From the NCBI GenBank assembly GCA_016789405.1, contig JAEUPQ010000029.1, forward strand, positions 1 to 64,000: a stretch of DNA of 64,000 nt. The letters run 5' to 3'. Made by a program: the position numbers and the translations under genes. Position 1 is the first letter of the stretch; each line of letters opens with the position of its first letter. The notes below the pieces were generated by a model. It was not told the origin of the DNA. It searched no databases and worked only from the letters and a program-made list of their open reading frames with translations. The stretch is from Lysobacteraceae bacterium. GTDB lineage: Bacteria; Pseudomonadota; Gammaproteobacteria; Xanthomonadales; Xanthomonadaceae. Positions 14,089-27,211 of the stretch are shown here, in pieces.

Positions 14089-14640
14089 TCAAGGCGCTGC
14101 CGCACGCTGCGGCACCCGACGCAGCTGCGACACGTCGTAGCCCAGGTCTCTCAGGCGCGCGACGTGGGCGTCGTAGTCGGCGTCGGAAATCGTTGGCGTG
14201 CGCGCCATCACCCAGACGTAATCCCGGGCGCTGCGCCCGACGATGGTCTGCTGGTAGGCGTCGTCGACATGCACGATCACGTATTCGGCCTTGATCGGCC
14301 AGACGAACTGCATGCCCCAGACGGCATTGCCGGTGCCCGGCCGAACGGTGCCGACGGGGCGCATGGTCTTCACCGGGGCGTCGAAGCTGCCCTTGCGCTG
14401 GCGATAGGTGGTCTGCACCTTGCCGTCCTCGCGCAGAGCGTAGGACTCGATGGCGTCATGGGCATCCTTCTCGATGAAGGTCGGGATGTGCGCGATGACG
14501 TACCAGTCGCCCATGAAACGCGGCAGGTCGACCTGGGCGACCGGCGGGATGGTCGGTGCGTTGCGTCCGCCGAAGGCGTACACCCCGCCCACGGTGAGTG
14601 CGCCGGCGGCCAGCGCGATCGCGATCAATCCTGTCTTCAT
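14089..14640 (-). CDS. Lipocalin family protein (Blc-like), end of the lipid operon
   Basis: The 183-residue protein has an N-terminal hydrophobic signal segment (MKTGLIAIALAAGALTVGG) and the lipocalin start motif FMGDWYVIAHIP, followed by GRSARDYVWVMARTP and the short C-terminal helix typical of bacterial Blc. Unlike E. coli Blc there is no lipobox Cys, so it is likely periplasmic or anchored only by its signal segment. Blc-type lipocalins bind fatty acids or lysophospholipids. As the last gene of a seven-gene operon (25 bp after the second methyltransferase) it may carry or protect the modified acyl chains; that is inference. Confidence 0.88.
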   Translation of the reverse strand: MKTGLIAIALAAGALTVGGVYAFGGRNAPTIPPVAQVDLPRFMGDWYVIAHIPTFIEKDAHDAIESYALREDGKVQTTYRQRKGSFDAPVKTMRPVGTVRPGTGNAVWGMQFVWPIKAEYVIVHVDDAYQQTIVGRSARDYVWVMARTPTISDADYDAHVARLRDLGYDVSQLRRVPQRAAAP

Positions 14641-14665: not shown

Positions 14666-15760
14666 TCATTCCTGTTTCGCGAAGCGATAGTGCGCGACCA
14701 GCCACTCCTGGCCGTCGGCGTAGCCGAACAGTTCCGCGCAGGCCATCCAGAACATCCGCCAGCGCTGGAACCACAGGCCGGCGTGCTCGCCGTAGGCTTC
14801 GCGCAGCACCGCCATCACGGCATCGCGGTTCCTGTCCTGGTTCTGCAGCCAGTGGTTCGCGGTCTTTTCGTAGTGCGTGCCATCGACGTGCCAGCGCTGT
14901 TCGATGCGCAGCGCCTTCTGGAACCACAGCAGCGTGTCGGATGCTGGCATCAGGCCCCCGGTGAAGAAATGTCGCCCCATCCAGTTGTCTTCGCCCTCGG
15001 TCTCGAAGGGATACATCAGGGTGCGATGGGCGAAGATGTGGACGAATAGCTTGCCTTCGGGCTTCAGCCAGCCGGCGATGTTGCCGAGCAGGGTGTCGTA
15101 GTTGCGCATGTGTTCGAACATTTCGATCGAGACGCAGCGATCGAAGGTCTCGCCCGGCAGTTGCAGTCGGTTGACGTCGCAGGTCACGACCTCGACGTTG
15201 TGCAGGCCGCGTTCGCGGCATTGGCCGAGGATGTGCTCGCGCTGCGGTCGTGAATTGGAAATGGCGGTGATGCGCGCGTTCGGAAAGTGCTCGGCCATCC
15301 ACAGCGTCAGCGAGCCCCAGCCGCAGCCCAGTTCGAGGATGCGCTGGCCGTCTGCGAGGTCAGCGCGTTCGCCGTACAGCGCGAGCATTGCGTCCTCTGC
15401 CTGGTCCAGGGTTTCGTCGCCGCGCGGATAGTAGGCCGACGAGTACTTCAGCCGACGCCCGAGGCAGAGCCTGAAGAAATCCGGCGGCAATTCGTAGTGC
15501 TGGGCATTGGCGGCATCGGTGTGGATCGCGACCGGGCTCTCGCGAAGTTCGGCGATGCGTTGGCGGAAGCGCTCGGCCTGCGCCTGCAGGCCGCCGACGC
15601 GTTCGGCCATCAGTCGTGCTTCGCACTGGCGTCGGATCCCCAGGCGCAGCAGCGCATCGGGCAGCAGGCCGCGCTCGGCCAAGCCCAGCAGGCCCGGGCC
15701 GGGCTGGTCCTGGGGGAGTTCGCAGGCGTCGTTCGACGGCAGGGCGGTGGTCCGGCTCAT
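14666..15760 (-). CDS. Cfa-like SAM-dependent methyltransferase (second copy)
   Basis: The start is ATG 15760, overlapping the DUF2878 stop as ATGA. The 364-residue protein belongs to the Mycolic acid/cyclopropane synthase fold: HYELPPDFFRLCLG, YSSAYYPRGDETLDQAED, the SAM loop ILELGCGWGSLTLWMAEHF, and SIEMFEHMRNY. It lacks the C-terminal CExGFR segment present in the operon's first Cfa protein and ends instead in WMACAELFGYADGQEW. This places it with the class often named coclaurine N-methyltransferase-like rather than with true Cfa. A role in methylating an unsaturated acyl chain is inferred from context. Confidence 0.88.
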   Translation of the reverse strand: MSRTTALPSNDACELPQDQPGPGLLGLAERGLLPDALLRLGIRRQCEARLMAERVGGLQAQAERFRQRIAELRESPVAIHTDAANAQHYELPPDFFRLCLGRRLKYSSAYYPRGDETLDQAEDAMLALYGERADLADGQRILELGCGWGSLTLWMAEHFPNARITAISNSRPQREHILGQCRERGLHNVEVVTCDVNRLQLPGETFDRCVSIEMFEHMRNYDTLLGNIAGWLKPEGKLFVHIFAHRTLMYPFETEGEDNWMGRHFFTGGLMPASDTLLWFQKALRIEQRWHVDGTHYEKTANHWLQNQDRNRDAVMAVLREAYGEHAGLWFQRWRMFWMACAELFGYADGQEWLVAHYRFAKQE

Positions 15761-16329
15761 GGGGCATGTCCTCGGGGCGGAATCGGATCGGAGAGTGAAG
15801 TGCCTGTCGGCAGTCGGGTCGCGAGCAGCACGAGGGCGGGAAGCGCGAGGCTCCAGGCCAGAGCAAGCACGGCGATGGCCTGCCAGCGGGGTTCGGCGAC
15901 ATCGATGGCCTGCCAGCCGCGTGCGGCGCCGAGATAGGCGAGCGGCCCGCCGATCGCGCCGATCGCCATGGCGAGGTACGGTCGCCCAAGCAGGACACGC
16001 ATCGACCGACGCAGCGTCAGCGCGAAGCAGGCCCAGATCGCGAGCAGCCAGAGCGGCGCGCCGCCGGGGAAGGCGGGCGACGACGCGGCGTAGTTCGCCA
16101 GCCCGCTGGATGCCATGGCGCCATCGACCAGCACGCCGCAGGCCAGCGCTGCGGCCAGCAGGCGCAGGTCGATGCTGCGTTCGCGCGACTGCTGCAATTG
16201 CACGGCGACGAACAGCGCCGCTGCCGCGACGCCCGGCCACCACAGGCCTTTTCCGGCGCCGATCACGGCCGCGAACCACACCGCCTGGTAGGCGAGTGCA
16301 TTGGTCCAGAGGCGTGCGCGTTCGTTCAT
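15757..16329 (-). CDS. DUF2878-like integral membrane protein
   Basis: The 190-residue protein is mostly hydrophobic, with about five membrane segments: ALAYQAVWFAAVIGAG, WPGVAAAALFVAVQL, LRLLAAALACGVLVDG, PLWLLAIWACFALTL and the final IAVLALAWSLALPALVLLA. Both its size and its place between Cfa-type methyltransferases fit DUF2878, a family of inner-membrane proteins seen in similar lipid clusters of Vibrio and Shewanella. Its molecular role is unknown. It starts 10 bp after the first Cfa gene and overlaps the second methyltransferase by 4 bp, so it is tightly coupled to both. Confidence 0.75.
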   Translation of the reverse strand: MNERARLWTNALAYQAVWFAAVIGAGKGLWWPGVAAAALFVAVQLQQSRERSIDLRLLAAALACGVLVDGAMASSGLANYAASSPAFPGGAPLWLLAIWACFALTLRRSMRVLLGRPYLAMAIGAIGGPLAYLGAARGWQAIDVAEPRWQAIAVLALAWSLALPALVLLATRLPTGTSLSDPIPPRGHAP

Positions 16330-16339
16330 CGCGCGCGGC

Positions 16340-17644
16340 TCAGGCCTGCAGCCTGGCGGTTTCGGGGAAGGCCGGCATCGGTGCGCTGCCGCGGTGTCCC
16401 GGTCGCGCCATCAGCAGTTGCGCCACGCCGATCGATCGTTCGCGGAAACCACCTTCGCAGTAGGCGAGATAGAACTGCCACATCGCGATGAATCGGTCGT
16501 CGAAGCCCTGTGCGCGCACCTCGGGCAGCGCGGCGAGGAAGCGATGGCGCCAGGCTTCGAGCGTGCGCGCATACGACAGCCCGAAATCCTCCAGTTGGAT
16601 CAGCGCGAGGTCGCTGGCACGCGACTTCGCTTGCACCATCGCCGCGATCGACGGGATGAAGCTGCCCGGGAACACGTGGCGCTTGATGAAATCGACCGAG
16701 CGCAGCGCCTGCTCGTAGCGATGGTCCTCGATGGTGATCGCCTGGATCAACGCCAGCCCGTCCGGCTTGAGCAGCCGGCCGAGCGTGGCGAAATAGATGT
16801 CGAGGTATTCAGCGCCGATGGCTTCGATCATCTCGATCGACACCAGCTTGTCGTACTGGCCCTGGAGGTCGCGGTAGTCCTGCAGCAACAGCGTGACCCT
16901 GTCCTGCAGGCCGGCCTCGGCCACGCGCTGCGCGGCGAGCGCGTGCTGTTCCTTCGAGATCGTGGTGGTGGTGACGCGGCAGCCGTAGTGGGTTGCGGCA
17001 TGGACGGCGAAACCGCCCCAGCCCGTGCCGATCTCGATCACGTGGTCGCCGGGCTTGAGGTCGAGCTTGCGGCAGATGCGATCGAGCTTGCGCGCGGAGG
17101 CATCTTCCAGGCTGTCCTCGTCGCCCGCCCAGATGCCCGAGGAATACATCAGGTCTGGCGAGAGGAACAGCCGGAAGAAATCGTTGCCGAGGTCGTAATG
17201 CGCGGCGATGTTGCGACGACTGCCGTCGCGCGTATTGCGGCGCAGCGCGTGCCAGGCGCGCATGGCCAGGCCACCGATGCGCGCGGCGCCGGTTTCCATG
17301 CCGTCCAGCAGGTCGCGATTGCGCACCAGCAGTCGTACCAGTGCGACCAGGTCGCTGCAGCGCCAGTGACCGTCCATCCACGCTTCGCCGGCGCCCACGC
17401 TGCCGTTCGCGGCGATGGCGCGGTAGAAGCCGGGGGAATCGACGTCGATGCGCACGTCGAGGTCGACGACGGCCTGTGCCGGGTCGCCCACGACGATGGT
17501 GCCGAATGCATCGCACAGGGTCAGCCTGCCGTGGCGCAATCCGGACATGCGATCGACCAGCCGCTGGCGCAGGAAGCGATCGAACGCGCCGTAGTCGGCG
17601 TGCATCGCGTCGTTGGCGGAAGCATTGCGGGCGATCTCGTTCAT
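16340..17644 (-). CDS. Cyclopropane-fatty-acid-synthase family methyltransferase (UfaA1/UfaM-like)
   Basis: The start is ATG 17644, which follows CCAGGAG and overlaps the DUF1365 stop. The 434-residue protein has the ~130-residue N-terminal domain of Cfa proteins and then AAHYDLGNDFFRLFLS, MYSSGIW, the SAM-binding VIEIGTGWGGFAVHAA, SIEMIEAIG, an ITIEDHRY histidine motif and YCEGGFRER near the C-terminus, as in E. coli Cfa. It uses SAM to add a methyl or methylene carbon to a cis double bond of membrane phospholipid acyl chains. Beside a flavin oxidase and DUF1365 gene it resembles mycobacterial UfaA1 and Rhodobacter UfaM, so the product may be a methyl-branched or furan precursor and not a cyclopropane. 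Confidence 0.9.
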   Translation of the reverse strand: MNEIARNASANDAMHADYGAFDRFLRQRLVDRMSGLRHGRLTLCDAFGTIVVGDPAQAVVDLDVRIDVDSPGFYRAIAANGSVGAGEAWMDGHWRCSDLVALVRLLVRNRDLLDGMETGAARIGGLAMRAWHALRRNTRDGSRRNIAAHYDLGNDFFRLFLSPDLMYSSGIWAGDEDSLEDASARKLDRICRKLDLKPGDHVIEIGTGWGGFAVHAATHYGCRVTTTTISKEQHALAAQRVAEAGLQDRVTLLLQDYRDLQGQYDKLVSIEMIEAIGAEYLDIYFATLGRLLKPDGLALIQAITIEDHRYEQALRSVDFIKRHVFPGSFIPSIAAMVQAKSRASDLALIQLEDFGLSYARTLEAWRHRFLAALPEVRAQGFDDRFIAMWQFYLAYCEGGFRERSIGVAQLLMARPGHRGSAPMPAFPETARLQA

Positions 17645-18420
17645 GACGGACTCCTGGTGGAGAGGGAAGGGTGGTCGTGGACGGGCGCGCGCTTGAGCCA
17701 CAGGCGCAGCGCCTGCCAATGGATCGCACCGACGACCTGCGCGGTCATCAGCGGATACCGCCAGAGCACGCGCCGCAGCGATACGGCATCGAGTGGACGG
17801 CGCTGCATGCCGAGCGTCGCGTCGAAGCAGCGCTTGCCGTCGCGCAGGACATCCATGTGCACGCGCAGGTCGTCGCCCGGCACGGTGAAGCGCCAGTCGT
17901 AGTCGTGGTCCATCGCCATGAAGGGCGAGACATGGAAGCGCTTGCCGAAGGTCCAGTGCAGCGCGCGGCCGCGCGATGTCGCGTCGTCCACCGGCAGCAC
18001 GTAGGCGTGGCGCTCGCCCCAGGGCGTGTTGGTGATCTCGGCGACGATGCAGTCCAGGGTTTCGCCGTCGGGCCGGAAGCAGTAGTAGAAGCTGACCGGA
18101 TTGAACACGTAGCCGAAGTAGCGCAGATGCGTGAGCAGGCGGATCGGCCCTGCGGGAATGCGCCCGAGCGCGCGACCTGCCTGCAGTCGCACGGCGTCGG
18201 CGAGCGGCACGTCGGCGCCTCCCAGGTAGTCGCTGCGACGGAATTCGGCGACGTTGCGACGGTTCACGGACCACAGGCGCCGGCCCGCGAACACCTGCGG
18301 CAGTTCGTCGAGGTCCAGGTAGAGCTGCGCCATGCGGTAGCGGAAAGCGTGCGGCGTGGGCGCGTGCCGGCGATGCCGCACCACGCCTTCGTAGATCGCG
18401 CTGTGCATCGTCGAACTCAT
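17641..18420 (-). CDS. DUF1365 family protein
   Basis: The 259-residue protein shows the DUF1365 landmarks: SAIYEGVVRHRRHAPTPHAF, LTHLRYFGYVFNPVSFYYCF and ALHWTFGKRFHVSPFMAMD, with LRRVLWRYPLMTAQVVGAIHW near the end. It starts at ATG 18420, overlapping the stop of the flavin oxidase gene; Met5 is a possible later start. DUF1365 genes almost always lie next to a flavin amine oxidase and a Cfa-type gene, including Rv0448c in Mycobacterium, so a shared step in acyl-chain modification is likely. Its reaction is unknown. Relatives are described in some databases as START-like, which I cannot verify here. Confidence 0.9.
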   Translation of the reverse strand: MSSTMHSAIYEGVVRHRRHAPTPHAFRYRMAQLYLDLDELPQVFAGRRLWSVNRRNVAEFRRSDYLGGADVPLADAVRLQAGRALGRIPAGPIRLLTHLRYFGYVFNPVSFYYCFRPDGETLDCIVAEITNTPWGERHAYVLPVDDATSRGRALHWTFGKRFHVSPFMAMDHDYDWRFTVPGDDLRVHMDVLRDGKRCFDATLGMQRRPLDAVSLRRVLWRYPLMTAQVVGAIHWQALRLWLKRAPVHDHPSLSTRSPS

Positions 18421-19706
18421 GCGCGCAGGGCCGTGGCCGGTTCGTTCGCGGGCGTGGCACGGGGTGTCCATGCCGCACCGAGCGCATTGGCGACGTCGAC
18501 GGCGCTGCGCATGCCGTCTTCGTGGAAGCCCCACCCCCAGTAGGCACCTGCGAACCAGGTGTGGCGATGCCCCTGGATCTCGGCGCGTCGCGCCTGGGCG
18601 GCGACCGACGCGTGGTTGTAGACCGGATGGTTGTAACGCATGCGGCGCAGGATCCGCGCCGGGTCGATCCGGTCTGTGCGGTTGAGGGTGACGATGAGCG
18701 GCTCGGGCGCGTCGAGGTTCTGCAGCAGGTTCATGCAGTAGCTGACGGTGCACGCGTCGTGGGCATCGCGTGGCACGAGCGCGTTCCACGCGGCCCAGGC
18801 CTTCGGATTGCGCGGCAGCAACCTCGCATCGGTGTGCAGCACCGTGTCGTTCGCCTGGTAGGCGATCGCACCCAGCACCGACCGCTCGGCGTCGCTGGCG
18901 TCCCCCAGCAACTGCAGGGCCTGGTCGCTGTGGCAGGCGATGACCACGTGGTCGTAGTGCTCGGCATCGTCGTCGGTCATCACGGTCGCACCGGCGCCGG
19001 TGCGCAGGAGCATGCGGACCGGCGTGGAAGGACGTTCGCGCACCTGCCATCGCGCACGCATCGCGTCGATGTAGCGGCTGGAACCGCCTCGCACCACGCG
19101 CCACTGCGGACGGTCGCTGACCTGCAGCATCTGGTGGTTCGCCATGAACGTGACCAGGTACTTCGCGGGGAACGCGAGGATGCGGGAGGACGGCGAGGAC
19201 CAGAGCGCCGAAGCCATCGGCACCAGGTGATCATCGCGGAACATCGCGCCATAGCCGTGGGCATCGAGGTACTCGCCCAGCGTGGGGCCTTCTCCTGGCA
19301 CGTCGAGCAGCGCCGGCGATTCGCGATAGAAGCGCGACAGGTCCCGGAGCATGCCCCAGAACCGCGGAGAGGCCAGGTTGCGGCGCTGGCAGAACAGCGA
19401 GTCGAGATCGGTTGCGTTGTATTCCAGCCCGGAAGACTCGTTGCGGACGGAGAAGCTCATCGTCGTCGGCTGCGACGCGACGCCCAGTTCCTCGAACAGG
19501 GCGGTCAGCAGCGGATAGTGCCGCGGGTTGTGCACGATGAACCCGGTGTCGACTTCGAAGCGCCGACCCTGCAGCTCGATCCGGTGGGTATGGGTGTGTC
19601 CGCCCAGGCGATCGTCTGCTTCGTAGAGCGTGACGTCGTTGCCCCGGGAAAGCAGCCACGCCGAGGCCAGTCCGGCGATCCCTGATCCGATGACGGCGAT
19701 GCGCAT
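18417..19706 (-). CDS. FAD-dependent amine-oxidase-like oxidoreductase of the Cfa cluster (UfaD/Rv0449c-like)
   Basis: The start is ATG 19706, seven bases after AAGGAG. The 429-residue protein opens with the FAD dinucleotide fold, IGSGIAGLASAWLLSRG and TLYEADDRLGGH, then GFIVHNPRHYPLL. It continues with GLEYNATDLDSLFCQRRNL and ends with WFAGAYWGWGFHEDGM, a signature of the flavin oxidases adjacent to Cfa genes. In Rhodobacter the equivalent flavoprotein (UfaD) desaturates a methylated vaccenoyl chain on the way to furan fatty acids. The precise reaction here is inferred. It starts 2 bp after the desaturase stop and overlaps DUF1365 by 4 bp. Confidence 0.9.
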   Translation of the reverse strand: MRIAVIGSGIAGLASAWLLSRGNDVTLYEADDRLGGHTHTHRIELQGRRFEVDTGFIVHNPRHYPLLTALFEELGVASQPTTMSFSVRNESSGLEYNATDLDSLFCQRRNLASPRFWGMLRDLSRFYRESPALLDVPGEGPTLGEYLDAHGYGAMFRDDHLVPMASALWSSPSSRILAFPAKYLVTFMANHQMLQVSDRPQWRVVRGGSSRYIDAMRARWQVRERPSTPVRMLLRTGAGATVMTDDDAEHYDHVVIACHSDQALQLLGDASDAERSVLGAIAYQANDTVLHTDARLLPRNPKAWAAWNALVPRDAHDACTVSYCMNLLQNLDAPEPLIVTLNRTDRIDPARILRRMRYNHPVYNHASVAAQARRAEIQGHRHTWFAGAYWGWGFHEDGMRSAVDVANALGAAWTPRATPANEPATALRA

Positions 19707-19708
19707 GA

Positions 19709-20680
19709 TCAGCTCCTTGCCTTCTCGAAGACCCAGGCGGGAATCGGTTTGAGGTCGCGCACCAGCCCGAACAGTGCCAGCGTGCGCAGCCCGTAGTAGG
19801 TCAGGTCGACTTCCCACCAGCGGAAGCCCTGGCGCGCGCTGCCCGGGAAGAAGTGGTGGTTGTTGTGCCAGCCTTCGCCGAAGGTCAGCAGCGCGAGCCA
19901 CAGGTTGTTGCGGCTGTCGTCCCGCGTCTCGAAACGGCGCTTGCCGAAGCGATGGGCGAGCGAGTTGATGGTCACCGTCGCGTGGAACAGGACGATGGTG
20001 GAGACGAAGAAGCCCCAGACCAGCAGTTGCGGCCCATTGGTGTCCAGGCCGGGCGCTGCGTGCTCGAGCCATGCGCCGATCGCATACAGCGCAGCGGCCA
20101 GCAGGACCGGCACGACGATGTCGAAGCGATCGAGCAGGCGCAGCTCCGGGAAGCGCGCGAGATCCGGGATGCGCGCCCAGTCGGTCCGGAAGCCGTGGCG
20201 GGTCAGGAACCAACCGACGTGACTGCGCCAGAACCCGTGCACGGTCGGCGAGTGCATGTCGCGCTCGGTGTCGGCGTGACGATGGTGATTGCGATGGTGC
20301 GCGGCCCACCAGAGGGGGCCGCGCTGCACGCAGGAGGCCCCGATCAGCGCGAACAGGAACTGGACCGCCCGCGAGGTGCGAAAGGTCCGGTGCGAGAAGT
20401 AGCGATGGTAGAAGCCGGTGATCGCGAACATGCGGATCGCATACAGGGCGATCGCGATGGCCACGGCAGTCCAGGACACCCCGACGGCGAAAACCGCGAA
20501 GCAGGCGAGGTGCATGCCGAGGAAGGGAATCGCGCGCAGCCAGTCGACGCCGTCGGTCGCATCTTCCTGTGGGTCCGATGCAGTCGCGCCGGTATCGAAC
20601 CACCGCGCGACGGTCGTCGACCAACGCGCCGGCCTGGGCCGATCGGTGTCGAGTGAAGGTGACGAGGCGGCGTCCGACAT
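19709..20680 (-). CDS. Membrane fatty-acid (acyl-CoA delta-9-type) desaturase
   Basis: I set the start at ATG 20680 (MSDAASSP): CCAGGAG lies 6-7 bases upstream, whereas the earlier ATG at 20686 sits directly against it. The 323-residue di-iron membrane enzyme has all three histidine boxes: HRYFSH (92-97), HRNHH (129-133) and HNNHH (272-276), with the hydrophobic helices of stearoyl-CoA-type desaturases between them. It would introduce a cis double bond in saturated acyl chains using O2, giving the substrate that Cfa-type methyltransferases need. It is the first gene of the seven-gene operon, and a TGCATCC-N16-CGTA element starts 27 bp upstream. Confidence 0.92.
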   Translation of the reverse strand: MSDAASSPSLDTDRPRPARWSTTVARWFDTGATASDPQEDATDGVDWLRAIPFLGMHLACFAVFAVGVSWTAVAIAIALYAIRMFAITGFYHRYFSHRTFRTSRAVQFLFALIGASCVQRGPLWWAAHHRNHHRHADTERDMHSPTVHGFWRSHVGWFLTRHGFRTDWARIPDLARFPELRLLDRFDIVVPVLLAAALYAIGAWLEHAAPGLDTNGPQLLVWGFFVSTIVLFHATVTINSLAHRFGKRRFETRDDSRNNLWLALLTFGEGWHNNHHFFPGSARQGFRWWEVDLTYYGLRTLALFGLVRDLKPIPAWVFEKARS

Positions 20681-20706
20681 GCGCATCTCCTGGGAGTTGC
20701 CATTCG

Positions 20707-20734
20707 ATACGGCCGCTGTCGTCCCGCGGATGCA
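20707..20734 (-). promoter_or_regulatory. Putative ECF promoter of the lipid operon
   Basis: On the minus strand TGCATCC (20734-20728) is followed after 16 bases by CGTAT (20711-20707). The same pattern with the same spacing occurs upstream of the sigma/anti-sigma genes at 22429-22456. Transcription would begin about 20 bp before the desaturase start codon. The mycobacterial SigK -35 element, which I recall as CCATCC, shares CATCC. Confidence 0.6.
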
Positions 20735-20762
20735 CTTCGCAAGCGTCGCCGCCACGCCTGAA

Positions 20763-20802
20763 ACGCAGGAGGGCGCGTCTTTTCCGACGCGCCCTCCTGC
20801 GT
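20763..20802 (-). terminator. Terminator of the sigma/anti-sigma unit
   Basis: A perfect 17-bp stem (arms 20763-20779 and 20786-20802, core GGAGGGCGCGTC) with a 6-base loop lies between the anti-sigma stop and the promoter of the desaturase gene. On the minus strand only GTTTC follows, so the T run is weak, but the stem is very strong. It separates the two transcription units. Confidence 0.75.
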
Positions 20803-20819
20803 GTGACTTCTGTCGCGGA

Positions 20820-21644
20820 TCAGAGCGTCACGACATCGCCCTTGGCCACGATCGGGCCGGTCGGGACGCCCTGCGGCGCGCCGCCCTTGGGCTCGAGCGT
20901 GATCGCAAGGATCGCGCCCTTCGCCAGGTCCGCGCGCAGCTCGTCGGGCACCGCGACGGTGTGCGAGCGGTCGATCGACACGATGCCGAGCGATTTCGGC
21001 GACTCGCCTGGCGGGATCAGCCAGAGTTCCGGCTCACGGCCTTCGGCGTCGGCAGCGGCAGGTACCGGCACCATCAGCACCGTGCCTTCCTTCGGATCAA
21101 CCGAGGCCAGCCAGCCCGGCTTGCCGTCGTCACGCATCAGCGTGCTGACCGGCTTGGGCGCGGAAGGATCCTCGACGGGTGGCTGGGGCGTCGGCGGCGG
21201 GGTTGGAGGCTGGACGACGACGCGCGTGTCCGGGTCGTCGCCGTCGAGGAGGCCGAGCGGGCCGACCGCGACCGCTGCCAGCGCTGCGGCTGCGGCCAGG
21301 CCGGTCATGCCTCGCCAGAATCCCGGGTTCTGCCAGAGGCCTGTGCGCGCCGGTGCCGGGGAGGCAACTGCATCGCCGACCGCTGGCCAGCCGAGCCGGG
21401 CACGGATGCGAGGCCAGAGATGAGGCGGGATTTCCGCACCCTCGAACTCGGCCAGCAGGGGCGCAAGGCGTTGCTCCCAATCCGCGACCAGACGAGCGAA
21501 GGCGGGATCCTGGGCGATGCGGGCCTCTGCCTCGGCCCGCTGCGCCGCGTCGAGTACGCCAAGCACGTATTCGCCGGCGAAGATGTCCGCGGACGGGGGC
21601 TGCGCACCCTCGAAGTCGCGGTCGTCGATCTGTTCGATGTTCAT
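20820..21644 (-). CDS. RskA-type membrane anti-sigma factor
   Basis: The start is ATG 21644, overlapping the sigma stop; the open frame extends to a GTG at 21656. The 274-residue protein has an N-terminal sigma-binding-like helical domain (IFAGEYVLGVLDAAQRAEAEARI), a single membrane helix at about 110-133, a Pro/Thr-rich periplasmic linker and a C-terminal RskA-like domain (GWLASVDPKEGTVLMVPVP, EPELWLIPPGESPKSLG). It has no HxxxCxxC zinc motif, so it is RskA-type and not ChrR-type. RskA proteins hold their sigma at the membrane until regulated proteolysis or a redox signal frees it. Coupled translation with the sigma gene supports a cognate pair. Confidence 0.9.
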   Translation of the reverse strand: MNIEQIDDRDFEGAQPPSADIFAGEYVLGVLDAAQRAEAEARIAQDPAFARLVADWEQRLAPLLAEFEGAEIPPHLWPRIRARLGWPAVGDAVASPAPARTGLWQNPGFWRGMTGLAAAAALAAVAVGPLGLLDGDDPDTRVVVQPPTPPPTPQPPVEDPSAPKPVSTLMRDDGKPGWLASVDPKEGTVLMVPVPAAADAEGREPELWLIPPGESPKSLGIVSIDRSHTVAVPDELRADLAKGAILAITLEPKGGAPQGVPTGPIVAKGDVVTL

Positions 21645-22216
21645 GCTTCGAGGCACCCCCGAAGTTGCAGCAGGCCGCGGCGTATCCAGCTTTTCACCGA
21701 GCCGAGGGGAGACGAGATGCGGGTTGCGAGCTCCTCGTAGGTGGACCCTTCGAAGAATGCTGCGCGGATCAGGGCCTGGCGGCGGGCGTCGAGCTGGCGC
21801 ATGCAGGCTTCCAGCCGGGAGCGATCATCGTCGGACATGGCGCTCTGCAGCGGGGTGGCGCCCGCGTCGGGCACGTCGTCGGCCCATTCCATCGGCGCCA
21901 GCGTGCCGCGCGCGGGTGCTGCGCGCAGGCGGTCGATGGCGCGGTTGCGCGCGATCATCGACAGCCAGGCCATCGCACTGGCGCGCTCGGCGTCGAACTG
22001 GTGGGCCTTGTGCCAGATCGTGGTGTAGACCTCCTGCACCACATCCTCCGCTTCGGCACGGTCGCCAAGCACCCGCAGGCAGACGCCGAACAGGCGCGAG
22101 GACGTGGCGCGGTAGAGGGTTTCGAAGGCGTTGCGACTTCCGCCGGCAACGTCGCGCAACAGCGCATCCAGTCCGGGGATCTCCTGAAAATCGGGGCTCG
22201 GGCGGATTTCGGGCAT
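21641..22216 (-). CDS. ECF RNA polymerase sigma factor (SigK-type)
   Basis: I place the start at ATG 22216 (MPEIRPS), with AAGGA seven bases upstream. The frame remains open to about 22429, so a longer form is possible. The 191-residue protein has region 2 (27-97: FETLYRATSSRLFGVCLRVL, EDVVQEVYTTIWHKA, WLSMIARNRAIDRLR) and region 4 (138-187: CMRQLDARRQALIRAAFFEG, SPLGSVKSWIRRGLLQLR). The overlapping RskA-type anti-sigma gene and the downstream flavin oxidase/DUF1365/Cfa genes match the make-up of the mycobacterial sigK locus. A TGCATCC-N16-CGTA element about 210 bp upstream of the start suggests autoregulation. Confidence 0.92.
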   Translation of the reverse strand: MPEIRPSPDFQEIPGLDALLRDVAGGSRNAFETLYRATSSRLFGVCLRVLGDRAEAEDVVQEVYTTIWHKAHQFDAERASAMAWLSMIARNRAIDRLRAAPARGTLAPMEWADDVPDAGATPLQSAMSDDDRSRLEACMRQLDARRQALIRAAFFEGSTYEELATRISSPLGSVKSWIRRGLLQLRGCLEA

Positions 22217-22428
22217 CCGGGGTCCTTGTGGGGTGGGCGAGCGGGGAAGAGCGGACGAACGTGGCCCGATCTTCGCGGAGAATGCGGCAGGGGGCAACCC
22301 GGGATCGCGCGTTCCGTGATCGCGGCGCAGGTTGCCGTGCGGATTGCCGTGGATCTCGGGCGGTGGTGTCGACGCGTCGCGGTCAACGTCCTGGCTCGGA
22401 AGTTCGATGGTGTCGTTCATGACCGGCA

Positions 22429-22456
22429 CTACGGTGCGTTCGCGGGTCCGGATGCA
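22429..22456 (-). promoter_or_regulatory. Putative autoregulatory ECF promoter of the sigma/anti-sigma genes
   Basis: On the minus strand TGCATCC (22456-22450) is followed after 16 bases by CGTAG (22433-22429). It matches the element before the desaturase operon in sequence and spacing. It implies either a ~200-nt leader before ATG 22216 or a near-leaderless transcript translated from the upstream in-frame GTG/ATG at 22429/22420. Confidence 0.55.
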
Positions 22457-22474
22457 GCCGGTTCCCGAAAATGA

Positions 22475-22502
22475 CGAAGGCCCGGGTCTCCCCGGGCCTT
22501 CG
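22475..22502 (-). terminator. Terminator of the M13 peptidase gene
   Basis: A perfect 12-bp stem (CGAAGGCCCGGG with a TCTC loop on the plus strand) lies just past the M13 stop. On the minus strand it is followed by TCATTTTC, a short T-rich tract. Confidence 0.75.
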
Positions 22503-22522
22503 TGTGTCGCATGAAGATGCGC

Positions 22523-24652
22523 TTACCAGATGGCGATGCGGTTGTCGCCGTCACGCACCATCGGGTCGCCGGCCTTGCACGAGAACGCGGCCGCGAAGGC
22601 AGGGTGGTTCGACGGTGCGCCGATCGCGCGGAAGTTGGCTGGCGCATGCGGATCGGTGACCAGGCGCGTGGCCAGCTCCTTCTCGGTGAAGTTGCGACGC
22701 CACACCGTCCCCCAGTTGAGGAAGAACCGCTGCTCGCGCGGCAGGCCCTCGACCATCGCATCTTTCTGGCCTTCGGTCGCGCGCTTGAAGGCGTCATAGG
22801 CCACGGCCAGGCCGCCGAGATCGGCGATGTTCTCGCCCAGCGTCAGCTTGCCGTTGACGTACTTGCCCGGTGCGGCCTCGTACGCGTTGAACTGCGCGAT
22901 GAGCTTGCCGGTCAGGCCCATGAAGCCGTTCATGTCGGCCTCGCTCCACCAGTTCTCGAAGTTGCCGGTCGGTCCGAATCGGCTGCCCTGATCGTCGTAG
23001 CCATGGATCATTTCATGGCCGATCACCGCGCCGATGCCGCCATAGTTCAGCGCGTCGTCGGCCTTGGCGTCGAAGAACGGCGGCTGCAGGATTGCGGCCG
23101 GGAACACGATCTCGTTGAGCTGCGGGTTGTAGTAGGCGTTGACCGTCTGCGGGCTCATGCCCCACTCGGTGCGGTCGACCGGCTTGCCGATCTTGCCGAG
23201 GTTCCACTTGTAGTTGAACTCGTTCGCAGCCAGCACGTTGCCGATGTAGCTGTCGCGCGAAGTATTCAGGCCCGTCCAGTCGCGCCACTTGTCGGGGTAG
23301 CCGATCTTCGGCGTGAACGTGGCCCACTTTTCCAGCGCCTTCTTCTTGGTCTCGGGCGTCATCCACGCGAGGTTCTCGAGGCGCGGCTTCAGTGCTTCGC
23401 GCAGGTTCTTCACCAGCTGCTCCATGCGCGCCTTGGATTCGGGCGGGAACGCGACCTGCACGTACATCTGGCCCAGGGCTTCGCCACTCTGGCCTTCGAT
23501 CGTGTCGAGCACGCGCTTCCAGCGCGGCTGCTGTTCCTTCTGGCCGCGCAGAGCAGCGCGATGGAAATTGAAGTGCTCTCCAGCGAAGGCATCGCTGAGA
23601 TGCGGCGAGGCGCCATCGACCATGTGGTAACGCAAGTAGCTCTTCCAGGATTCGATCGGCGTATCGGCCAGCATCTTGTCGAATTCGGAATGGAATGCCG
23701 GCATGGCCAGCGAGAACATCTTCGGCGCGGCGATGCCCTGTGCTTCGAAGAACTTGCTCCACGGGAAATTCGGCGTGGCCTTGTCGGCCGCTTCGATCGT
23801 GACCGGGTTGTAGTAGAGCGACACGTCGCGCGACAGCTCTTCGCTGGACTTCGACACCTTGGCCAGGCGGGTCTCGAAGGCGATCACGTCCTTCGCCTGC
23901 GTGGCTGCATCGGCCGCCGGGACGCCCGACAGTTCCAGCACCTTGGCGACGTGCTGTTCGTAGGCAGCCAAGTCCTTCTTCTTGTCGGCATCGAAGTAGT
24001 ACGCCTTGTCCGGCAGGCCGAGGCCGGCCTGGGCGACATACGCGATGTTCATCGAGGAATCCTTGAAGTCGGCGCTCGGGCCGAAGCCGAACACCGCCTG
24101 CTCGCCGCGCGAGAAGCTCTTGCGCAGGTGCTCGGCGACCGAGGCGCCGTCGGTCAGCGCATCGATGGCATCCAGGCGGTCCTTCAGCGGCGCGATGCCC
24201 TGGGCATTGATCTTGGCTTCGTCCATGCCGGTCGACCACAGGTCACCGACGATCTTCTCGACGCCGGTCGCGTCCTTCATGGCTGCGGCCTGTTCGGCGA
24301 GCTGGCGCTGCACGCCGGTGGACCGTTCACCCAGCATCTCGAAGGCGCCCCAGGACGTCCGGTCGCCCGGGATCGTATTGGCCGCCAGCCACTTGCCGTT
24401 GACGAAGCCGCCAAAGTCGACACAGGCGCTCTTCGTGGTGTCGAGATCGCTGGCCATGAAGCGATTCACGGGCGACAGTTTGCTTTCGTCCAGAGTCAGT
24501 GCCGGACCGGCCTTGGCGGCGGGGGCGGCGGTGGTTTCGGGGCTGGCAGCGTCCTTGCCGCAGCCGGTCAGGGCGGCGGCCACCGCGAGCGTCAGCATCA
24601 GCACGCGCGGCTTGCGGGCAAGCGGTTTGAGGGTCTGGGCGATGGGATTCAC
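22523..24652 (-). CDS. M13 family zinc metallopeptidase lipoprotein
   Basis: I choose GTG 24652 (MNPIAQTL) because GGAGA precedes it by six bases; an ATG six codons earlier at 24670 is the alternative. The ~709-residue neprilysin-like protein starts with a lipoprotein signal (LTLAVAAALTGC). It has NAYYNPQLNEIVFPAAILQPPFF (with the M13 NAYY substrate motif), the zinc site VIGHEMIHGYDDQGSRF at about 543-559 and the second-site glutamate in ENIADLGGL near 605. M13 enzymes degrade short peptides; as a lipoprotein this one would act in the periplasm or at the outer membrane. HEMIH replaces the commoner HEITH/HELTH but keeps the catalytic His, Glu and His. Confidence 0.93.
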   Translation of the reverse strand: MNPIAQTLKPLARKPRVLMLTLAVAAALTGCGKDAASPETTAAPAAKAGPALTLDESKLSPVNRFMASDLDTTKSACVDFGGFVNGKWLAANTIPGDRTSWGAFEMLGERSTGVQRQLAEQAAAMKDATGVEKIVGDLWSTGMDEAKINAQGIAPLKDRLDAIDALTDGASVAEHLRKSFSRGEQAVFGFGPSADFKDSSMNIAYVAQAGLGLPDKAYYFDADKKKDLAAYEQHVAKVLELSGVPAADAATQAKDVIAFETRLAKVSKSSEELSRDVSLYYNPVTIEAADKATPNFPWSKFFEAQGIAAPKMFSLAMPAFHSEFDKMLADTPIESWKSYLRYHMVDGASPHLSDAFAGEHFNFHRAALRGQKEQQPRWKRVLDTIEGQSGEALGQMYVQVAFPPESKARMEQLVKNLREALKPRLENLAWMTPETKKKALEKWATFTPKIGYPDKWRDWTGLNTSRDSYIGNVLAANEFNYKWNLGKIGKPVDRTEWGMSPQTVNAYYNPQLNEIVFPAAILQPPFFDAKADDALNYGGIGAVIGHEMIHGYDDQGSRFGPTGNFENWWSEADMNGFMGLTGKLIAQFNAYEAAPGKYVNGKLTLGENIADLGGLAVAYDAFKRATEGQKDAMVEGLPREQRFFLNWGTVWRRNFTEKELATRLVTDPHAPANFRAIGAPSNHPAFAAAFSCKAGDPMVRDGDNRIAIW

Positions 24653-24874: not shown

Positions 24875-25897
24875 ATGAAAAAGACCGCTCTCTTCGCCGC
24901 CAGTCTCGTCATGGCCGCGTCCGCGTTTTCGCTCTGCACGGATGCAGCCGCCGCTGGAGGGAAGTCGCGCAGTGAGCGCGGCCAGCTCGTCCACCAGATC
25001 GTCATGAAGTGGGGCGGCCACGTCCAGGAGGCCTATCGTACTGACGTGCGCGGATGGGCGCGCGACATGGGGCCGTTGTTCGCGCGTGCGCCAGTCGCCG
25101 CGCTCAGGCAGGCTGCCGAAGCGCACACCTTCGACCAGATGAACAACATGCTGCTGACCTCTGTTCCGGGCAGTCAGGCGAAGAGCGTGTCCATCGCCGA
25201 GGCGACATCCGGAGACAAGCTGTTCGGCGACGCTGACAAGGATCTGATCTTCGTGCCGATCACCCCCTGCCGCATCATCGATACGCGTGTTGCCGGCGGC
25301 GCGATCGCGGCGAATACCACGCGCAACTTCGATGTCACTGCAGTGTCCAACTACACCTTCCAGGGCGGCGATGCCAGCAACTGCAACGGTGCCGGTGCTG
25401 CGGGCTCGTTCGCTGCCGCCGCGATCAACTTCACGGTGGTCACGCCGTCGGCTGCGGGATACATCACTGCGTTCCCGTATCTCGCCGCGCAGCCGCTTGC
25501 AGCTACGGTGAACTACACCGCAGGCGATATCCGTGGCAATTATGCAGTCGTGAAACTCGACCAGGGTGCATCGGCCGATGAGTTGAGCGTCTACACTTTC
25601 GCCCAGACGCACCTCGTCGCCGACATCGTCGGCTACTACCGCAACCCGGGTCCGCTGCTGTTCGAGTGCGTGAACTCCGGTGAGACCATCGACAGCGTGA
25701 ACGCGGGCGCCACCAAGAACACCGTCGCTCCGACGTGCCCGATCAGCTATACCCCGACGGCGACCAACTGCGAATCGTCGACCTGGCAGATGCCCTTCGT
25801 GTACTTCTCCGACGGCACGTGTTCGGCGCAGAACAATTCGTCGGGTACGGCGCAGTTGCGGGCCTCGCGGACGTGCTGCCGCGCCAGGCGTACCTGA
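24875..25897 (+). CDS. Secreted protein with a PCR-x-x-DTR beta domain (copy 1)
   Basis: The ATG at 24875 opens a clear signal peptide (MKKTALFAASLVMAASAFS), although a much longer frame is open upstream. The 340-residue product has a conserved N-terminal module (GQLVHQIVMKWGGHVQEA), then the widespread secreted domain marked by VPITPCRIIDTRVAGG, AINFTVVTPSAAGYITAFP and a closing HLVADIVGYY. That domain occurs in extracellular proteins of several phyla, without a known function. The C-terminal ~80 residues hold several Cys, ending TCCRARR. A frameshifted paralog follows 256 bp downstream. It is likely exported and disulfide-bonded. Confidence 0.8.
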   Translation: MKKTALFAASLVMAASAFSLCTDAAAAGGKSRSERGQLVHQIVMKWGGHVQEAYRTDVRGWARDMGPLFARAPVAALRQAAEAHTFDQMNNMLLTSVPGSQAKSVSIAEATSGDKLFGDADKDLIFVPITPCRIIDTRVAGGAIAANTTRNFDVTAVSNYTFQGGDASNCNGAGAAGSFAAAAINFTVVTPSAAGYITAFPYLAAQPLAATVNYTAGDIRGNYAVVKLDQGASADELSVYTFAQTHLVADIVGYYRNPGPLLFECVNSGETIDSVNAGATKNTVAPTCPISYTPTATNCESSTWQMPFVYFSDGTCSAQNNSSGTAQLRASRTCCRARRT

Positions 25898-25936
25898 TCC
25901 GGTTCCCCGGCTGATCAGGGAGCAGGCGTTCATCGA

Positions 25937-25967
25937 TCGCCCTGGCGGATCCGCGTCGCCAGGGCGA
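25937..25967 (+). terminator. Hairpin after the first secreted paralog
   Basis: A perfect 11-bp stem, TCGCCCTGGCG and CGCCAGGGCGA, with a 9-base loop lies 40 bp after the stop at 25897. No T run follows, so termination is likely but not certain. Confidence 0.5.
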
Positions 25968-26153
25968 AGCTTCGTGCAACGCGGCGCGCCCAGAAAACGG
26001 ATGCGCCATCTGTCCCGCAAGGCCGGCTTCCGCCGCCGAAGTGGCCTGTGCCATCCTTTCCCGGCGTGCAAGGTGCGCAGCGCCGGGGAAGCGGATCTGC
26101 GCCCGAATGCACGCGGGCACACTCGGTCGACATCACCCTCTGGGGGGTTATCC

Positions 26154-27211
26154 ATGAAACGCTCGTTGCTTGCTGGCGCCGTACTCGCTTCCGTCGTTCC
26201 GATGCTTTCCATTCCGGCCGTGGCCTATGCCGCCGGCGGCAAACAGACGCGCACCCTGCGCGGCGAACTGGTGCACCGGATCGTCATGAAATGGGGCAAC
26301 CACGTCCAGGAGGCACATCGCGCCGACGTGCGTCATTGGGCGATGGGCATGGTGCCTACCTTCAATCGCGTATCGATCGACACGCTGTCGAAAGCCTCGC
26401 AGGCGAAGACGTTCGATGCGATGAACAACGTGCTGCTCGGCGATGCCGTGGCCCCCGACTTTCCCAACCTTGCCGTCGCGGTGGGGAAGGGCGCGCTGCC
26501 GTTGCCCGAAAAGGCACTCGGCGATGCGGCCACTGACCTCGTATATGTCCCGGTGACGCCGTGTCGCGTGATCGATACGCGCGTTGCCGGTGGTGTGATC
26601 TCCGCCAACAGCACGCGCAATTTCGATATCACCGACGTGGCTGATTTCGCATTCCAGGGGGAGCCAGCAGCGATTGCGGTATTGGCGCAGCAGGCGCATT
26701 CGCCGCTGCTGTGATCAATTTCACGGTCGTTTCGCCGTCGGCGGCCGGCTACATCACTGCTTTCCCTTATCTGGCCTCGCAGCCGCTGGCTGCGACCGTC
26801 AACTACTCCGCCGGCGATATCCGCGGCAACCTGGCGATCGTGCGCCTCGACCAGGGGGCGTCCGCGCCGGAAATGTCCGTCTACTCCTTCGCGCAGACGC
26901 ATCTGGTCGCCGACGTCACCGGCTATTTCATCAACCCCCAGGCCACCAGCCTGAACTGCACGAACACGACCGTGCAATCCTTCACCATCGCGGCGAGCAG
27001 CGTGAATTTCTTCAACAATCCGAACTGTCCGGCGGGATACGCCGCAGTCACGCCGTATTGCTGGACCGCAGCGTCCGGTGTCTACAGCCAGGGCAGCGGC
27101 TACAACGCCAACGCACCCGGCAATGCGACCTTCTGTTCGTGGCAGAACACGACGGCCAGCAGCCAGACCGTGTTCGGCGGCAATGTCTGCTGCCGCGTGC
27201 CTGGGCGTTGA
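26154..27211 (+). pseudogene. Secreted PCR-x-x-DTR protein (copy 2), split by a -1 frameshift
   Basis: The gene starts at ATG 26154 after a G-rich site (TGGGGGGTT). It encodes a signal peptide, GELVHRIVMKWGNHVQEA and VPVTPCRVIDTRVAGG in one frame, which stops at 26714. The rest (INFTVVSPSAAGYITAFP through a C-terminal CCRVPGR) continues in another frame to 27211. Copy 1 shows where the frames must join. The five-G run at 26657-26661 would restore the reading frame if it had six Gs, giving FQGGASSDCGIGAAGAFAA, which aligns with copy 1. Downstream codons look fully maintained, so this may be a sequencing error, a phase-variable tract or a very recent lesion. Intact length would be about 352 residues. 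Confidence 0.85.

Follow-up and report, generated by a model that had tools for sequence, protein, structure and literature searches.

An ECF-type promoter element shared by a SigK-like sigma operon and a lipid operon in Lysobacteraceae appears to be served by two alternative sigma modules

An ECF sigma factor is as a rule portrayed as having promoters and a regulon of its own; the SigK family is known from tuberculosis bacteria and RpoE-ChrR from singlet-oxygen defence. In a 64,000-nucleotide stretch of the genome of Lysobacteraceae bacterium (contig JAEUPQ010000029.1, hereafter the window), the same element, TGCATCC-N16-CGTA, precedes both a sigma/anti-sigma gene pair and a desaturase-led lipid operon (Table 1). 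Does a single sigma factor read both copies, and is the element bound to one kind of sigma factor? The explanation that best fits the whole, to which we give a probability of roughly 85%, is that both copies would be promoters of one SigK-like ECF sigma that raises its own operon and the lipid operon, and that the promoter set would have been steadier than the sigma factor reading it.

Table 1. Promoter copies, genes and inverted repeat at the locus (window positions)
Feature	Position	Strand	Details
ECF promoter element of sigma/anti-sigma genes	22430-22456	(-)	-35 TGCATCC 22450-22456, N16, -10 CGTA 22430-22433
ECF sigma factor, SigK-like	21641-22216	(-)	191 aa from ATG 22216; Sigma70_r2/r4
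Anti-sigma factor, RskA_C domain	20820-21644	(-)	PF10099, 73.1 bits (cut-off 29.4)
Perfect 17-nt inverted repeat, 6-nt loop, between both units	20763-20779/20786-20802	.	putative hairpin
ECF promoter element of lipid operon	20708-20734	(-)	-35 TGCATCC 20728-20734, N16, -10 CGTA 20708-20711
Fatty acid desaturase, first operon gene	19709-20680	(-)	PF00487
FAD-dependent oxidoreductase, UfaD-type	18417-19706	(-)	PF01593; UfaD role from PMC7380195
DUF1365 protein, UfaO-type	17641-18420	(-)	PF07103, 290.8 bits; UfaO carries DUF1365 (PMC7380195)
Cyclopropane synthase-type methyltransferase, UfaM/Cfa-type	16340-17644	(-)	PF02353, 277.5 bits
DUF2878 protein	15757-16329	(-)	PF11086
Second cyclopropane synthase-type methyltransferase	14666-15760	(-)	PF02353, 132.8 bits
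Lipocalin, last gene of seven-gene run	14089-14640	(-)	PF08212

A pattern search found the exact element twice in the window, both times on the minus strand, and 100 dinucleotide shuffles of the window gave a mean of 0.01 occurrences and never two. The original prediction that the sigma gene and the desaturase-led operon share one element is thus borne out; it had placed both sites correctly, with spans one base too long at the low end. It had also held that a 17-bp hairpin between the units makes a second promoter copy necessary. The perfect repeat exists, but a terminator scan of positions 20600-22600 returned no terminator-like site, so the need for the second copy is something we infer rather than observe. 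From the -10 of the operon copy, 27 bases lead to the desaturase ATG at 20680. The sigma copy lies 213 bases from the better sigma start at 22216, which has AGGA upstream of it, and 9 bases from an in-frame ATG at 22420 that would lengthen the window sigma by 68 aa. All five genomes of the genus show this arrangement (window positions 22217-22433 and loci L041-L044): an in-frame ATG or GTG stands 9 bases after CGTA, and the frame from there to the sigma gene is open, its lengths being multiples of three. It is possible that, in addition to the internal start at 22216, there is a leaderless start that gives the sigma an N-terminal extension.

What kind of sigma factor does the pair encode? Its best match among solved structures was SigK (4nqw, 118.9 bits), followed by RpoE at 79.0 bits; against the SigK NCBIfam model it scored 154.6 bits, under the model's own cut-off of 226. 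In the alignment with 4nqw, Cys138 and Cys188 of the window sigma fall on cysteines 150 and 200 of the chain, which would be C133 and C183 of M. tuberculosis SigK provided that this chain has a 17-residue tag. These two cysteines occur in 35 of 35 SigK-type sequences and in none of 16 RpoE/ChrR-type sequences, and the partner adjoining the window sigma is an RskA_C protein, not ChrR (Cupin_7). The comparisons support a kinship of the window sigma with SigK. The original prediction had also likened the CATCC of the -35 to the mycobacterial SigK promoter, a sequence that the papers searched did not yield. No fasciclin was found among the ten neighbouring proteins scanned at the window locus.

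By domain matches, genes of the UfaM, UfaD and UfaO types (CMAS, FAD oxidoreductase and DUF1365) lie together in one run, with a desaturase in addition. Judged by its gene content the operon is of the furan-fatty-acid (Ufa) type, its likeness to R. sphaeroides being one of domains and roles, and its product is probably methylated or furan fatty acids. In R. sphaeroides, according to the accessible text of PMC7380195, UfaM (a methylase), UfaD (FAD-type) and UfaO (DUF1365) convert vaccenic acid to furan fatty acid, and the three genes are part of the RpoE-ChrR core regulon (PMC7380195 and PMC6852236, accessible parts). The S. maltophilia genes smlt2375-2367, with the same annotated functions, are 165- to 697-fold up without chrR and drop back when the sigma factor is missing (accessible part of PMC11832516).

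We surveyed 119 genomes of the family. SigK-type sigmas were found in 33 genomes (35 loci), after two of 37 sigma places (L075 and L076, at 36% identity and beside Cupin_7) had been dropped. DUF1365 was found in 62 genomes, and 60 operon loci were classed by the adjacent sigma factor: 20 with a SigK/RskA-type pair (class A), 16 with an RpoE/ChrR-type sigma (class B) and 24 with neither (class C), leaving aside G049, in which the contig begins inside the operon, and G086, which has neither sigma nor element. A Cupin_7 match adjoins the class B sigma in 15 of 16 loci, the contig of the sixteenth stopping there. For the one class B sigma tested (L103), the nearest solved structure was RpoE of 2q1z (108.0 bits), presumably the R. 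sphaeroides structure.

In word enumerations, GCATC-N17-CGTA was found before the desaturase in all 20 class A operons, the only word to reach 20/20 in that class, and CATCC-N16-CGTA before the operon in 15 of the 16 class B loci; each was the top word of its own set, shuffled maxima being 5-6. The exact TGCATCC-N16-CGTA precedes the operon in 15/20 class A, 10/16 class B and 1/24 class C loci, and the sole class C case is G090, in which SigK lies on a different contig. In G096 SigK and operon share a contig but are unlinked, and the operon is without the element. Five class C operons (L078, L079, L088, L095 and L108) have TGCATCC-N17-CGTA, with a spacing of 17 instead of 16. G013 gave no DUF1365 match: its sequence parallels that of G061 until just inside the desaturase and then skips to the end of the lipocalin, and the remnant promoter of this deleted operon reads CGTG versus CGTA in G061, a single case. 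A contig search of named relatives gave one close match, Lysobacteraceae bacterium 2PB (93%), the other 79 being at most 39% identical; these 80 loci held one fasciclin match, without the element.

Is the element also kept before the sigma genes? In 16 of 35 SigK-type loci, that of the window among them, the sigma gene has a near-consensus copy with identical spacing no more than 330 bases away (exact in 11), and the RpoE/ChrR-type sigma gene is preceded by one in 15 of 16 loci (exact in 14). In nine more SigK-type loci (L055, L062, L066-L068 and L070-L073) the next gene upstream of sigma, on the same strand, has the element before it, and the sigma gene could therefore be transcribed there by read-through. 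The other ten had a near-consensus element in neither position, the upstream-gene analysis covering 33 of the 35 loci (all but L048 and L069); three of the ten have TGAATCC-N16-CGTA and one ends at a contig edge. Conservation before operons and before SigK-type genes thus argues for a shared ECF-type promoter and for likely autoregulation. All comparative tests made mark the element as a true ECF promoter, and the SigK-like sigma probably regulates itself.

The two kinds of locus also have a neighbour gene in common. It lies just upstream of sigma in 10 of 20 class A loci, nine of which have the element in front of it. In class B it is present in 7 of 16 loci, in most cases flanked by sigma and desaturase, and six of these seven copies are preceded by the element; it adjoins the operon in 3 of 24 class C loci. 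The class A copies (L045, L055, L062, L066-L068 and L070-L073) are on the same strand as the SigK-type gene. No Pfam match was found in the single copy scanned (L154); going by position only, the gene may correspond to smlt2375. Thus, A and B loci share more than the operon, and the idea that they have no shared flanks was rejected on account of this gene.

We then asked how the element is distributed over whole genomes, taking spacing and N16 totals from per-genome tables. In ten genomes, spacings of 11-21 gave 177 matches: 64 at spacing 16 (56 in the other genomes and 8 in the window genome) and 113 at the other ten spacings together. The Poisson chance of 64 matches versus 11.3 expected is 3e-27, the genomes being related and not independent. 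A reversed-pattern control in 18 genomes gave 5 sites, against 85 N16 sites; over spacings 11-21 in the ten genomes the reversed pattern matched 100 times, about nine per spacing, so the count of 5 was low by luck and the spacing control was used instead. N16 sites numbered 151 in the 33 SigK-type genomes (4.6 per genome, at least one in 33/33), 66 in the 16 RpoE/ChrR-type genomes (4.1 per genome, at least one in 15/16) and 55 in the 70 genomes with neither sigma at the thresholds used (0.8 per genome, at least one in 32/70). Mann-Whitney comparison with the last group gave 6e-14 for SigK-type and 2e-7 for RpoE/ChrR-type genomes.

The original prediction had described a closed autoregulated circuit with only two properly placed copies, and had proposed a genome-wide search. 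That search recovered both copies among eight N16 sites in the window genome, so the count of two holds within the window but not beyond it. Two of the six further sites are well placed: one precedes a putative DNA-repair radical SAM gene (TIGR03916, 553.5 bits) whose ATG lies 41 bases on, the other a DUF2177 gene that has the element in four of five genomes of the genus. Autoregulation is likely by conservation, but with sites before other genes the circuit is not closed. Four sites were rejected as targets, L001 and L009 lying inside coding frames and L003 and L010 having no convincing downstream gene. At L009 (positions 1501-1527) the frame that holds the element, at its 3' end, is ECF-like and is followed by an EF-hand gene with EGKCG repeats; L123, L134, L136, L137 and L147 have the element in front of such a gene, at a distance of 60 to 124 bases.

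Downstream genes were inspected for 76 of the N16 sites in the 119 genomes, with Pfam searches on examples. Recurring genes were fasciclin, EF-hand with EGKCG repeats, DUF2177, GTP cyclohydrolase I, SelR/PMSR, DUF4331 and cytochrome b561, and single cases include BLUF and YceI. In SigK-type genomes, the genes preceded by N16 sites included fasciclin, DUF2177, GTP cyclohydrolase I and methionine sulfoxide reductase. Targets common to A- and B-type sites were the desaturase, an outer-membrane-type protein, a lipocalin and the upstream gene, together with GTP cyclohydrolase I by an out-of-frame match.

Among these targets, fasciclin orthologues (those near the G013 copy) had the element in 13 of 13 loci, five of them in RpoE/ChrR-type genomes, and paralogues in none of seven, with the cut between the two groups (at least 161 versus at most 108 bits) chosen after the scores were seen. 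One of the 13 elements reads TGAATCC, one TGCATCT and one CGCATCC. Of 18 genomes searched, 12 have an orthologue under the element. The assembly of the window genome contains no orthologue; its two fasciclin genes are paralogues, and neither has the element. Before the fasciclin gene, L167 (G061) and L181 (G013) have two tandem copies of the element 70 bases apart, and a further copy, CGCATCC, lies upstream in L288 and L296.

How do the two sigma types relate to one promoter? High-identity B-type sigmas occur in 17 genomes, the 16 of class B and G019. Both types were found together in one of 119 genomes (G019; Fisher 0.04), in which a Cupin_7 gene and the fasciclin gene adjoin the B-type sigma and the operon adjoins SigK. 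On a tree built from three operon proteins, no fewer than five changes are needed to explain the A/B labels, also with nodes under 0.9 collapsed; shuffled labels on the same tree needed 12 on average and 7 at minimum. A promoter swap accompanying the sigma swap was ruled out by the almost identical element of RpoE/ChrR-linked operons. The element before 20/20 SigK-linked and 15/16 RpoE/ChrR-linked operons, and before the fasciclin orthologue under both sigma types, points to one promoter with two alternative sigma modules. Two alternative modules that rarely occur together thus appear to serve a single promoter and part of a single regulon. A literature search, conducted largely without subscription papers, found no report of a SigK-type sigma on this operon type.

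We lean slightly towards a fuller account for the Lysobacteraceae, in which TGCATCC-N16-CGTA and one stress regulon (the furan-fatty-acid operon, the MPT83-like fasciclin, the sigma factor itself and probably an outer-membrane protein, a periplasmic protein and GTP cyclohydrolase I) would be served either by SigK/RskA, with its cysteine-bearing sigma, or by the non-orthologous RpoE/ChrR. With respect to the operon there would have been five or more module swaps, the signal changing and the target promoters being kept, and G019 would be a surviving intermediate. Alternatively, sigma pair and operon may have moved jointly, as two kinds of cassette with similar promoters, without any regulator being exchanged on a retained regulon. 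The six locus pairs that we compared had no common genes outside the operon other than the neighbour gene, as expected of cassettes. That very gene, present with its element in both kinds of locus, makes joint transfer less likely and module exchange likelier, and the label changes on the operon tree and the fasciclin element under both sigma kinds also speak against cassettes, which we consider improbable.

Could the operon copy instead be read by another sigma factor, the neighbouring SigK-like sigma regulating only itself? RpoE/ChrR-type genomes have almost the same sequence before operon and sigma genes, and G019 shows that one genome can hold both types. The window genome, however, had no RpoE/ChrR-type sigma match at E<=1e-18 (assembly 94.45% complete), its sole Cupin_7 match lies on another contig and below the family cut-off, and adjacency of operon and sigma has been retained, together with the element, in 20 loci. 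We regard this alternative as very unlikely, and the operon copy in the window genome is most likely read by the neighbouring SigK-like sigma. That the two copies resemble each other by chance or as a by-product of base composition could draw on the N16 matches inside coding frames; the shuffled windows, the excess at spacing 16 and the element before every SigK-linked operon contradict it, leaving it a negligible probability.

If the SigK-like sigma does read both copies, the RskA-type anti-sigma would hold it until an envelope or redox signal releases it; the freed sigma would recognise TGCATCC-N16-CGTA, raise its own operon and turn on the desaturase/UfaD/UfaO/UfaM-type operon, by which membrane acyl chains would be remodelled. 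In relatives, an RpoE/ChrR-type pair would act instead, through almost the same promoter on the operon and on the MPT83-like fasciclin gene. The proposed circuit resembles SigK-RskA (ECF18/ECF19), described with mpt83/mpt70 in M. tuberculosis and Yersinia enterocolitica (PMC7509140, accessible part), in its nearest sigma, both SigK cysteines, the adjacent RskA-domain partner, the likely autoregulation and the MPT83-like fasciclin orthologue under the element in relatives. Unlike that system as the accessible text describes it, the adjacent target of the window sigma is a furan-fatty-acid-type operon, not fasciclin. In that target the window resembles RpoE-ChrR (ECF11; R. sphaeroides, P. syringae), for which UfaD/UfaO/UfaM-type genes are a main target, and the P. 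syringae motif TGATCC-N16-CGTA has ATCC-N16-CGTA in common with the window element (accessible parts of PMC6852236, PMC5507510 and PMC7380195). The -35 differs, GCATCC versus TGATCC, and so do the regulators, a SigK-like sigma and RskA-domain partner in place of RpoE and the soluble zinc protein ChrR. In S. maltophilia rpoEc-chrR-chrA/smlt2375-2367, an operon of desaturase, FAD oxidoreductase, two Cfa and lipocalin lies beside and under an ECF sigma; from the accessible part of PMC11832516 it is the counterpart of the RpoE/ChrR-linked class, with a regulator type unlike that of the window.

These comparisons suggest that a stress response in bacteria can pass to another controller while its targets stay as they are. 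If this is right, a response would keep its promoters as its sensing module is exchanged between two sigma families, and regulator replacement would become directly testable with natural species pairs and with target promoters that are already named. Membrane-lipid chemistry would then be linked to the signal of SigK, which the accessible text of PMC7509140 describes as unknown. Two minor observations concern the surroundings of these loci. At L043 the sigma-operon block is flanked on both sides by M13 peptidase genes. In the window, at about 24876-27211, two adjacent paralogous frames share N-terminal parts of the GELVH/GQLVH...MKWG...VQEA type and DTRVAGG motifs.
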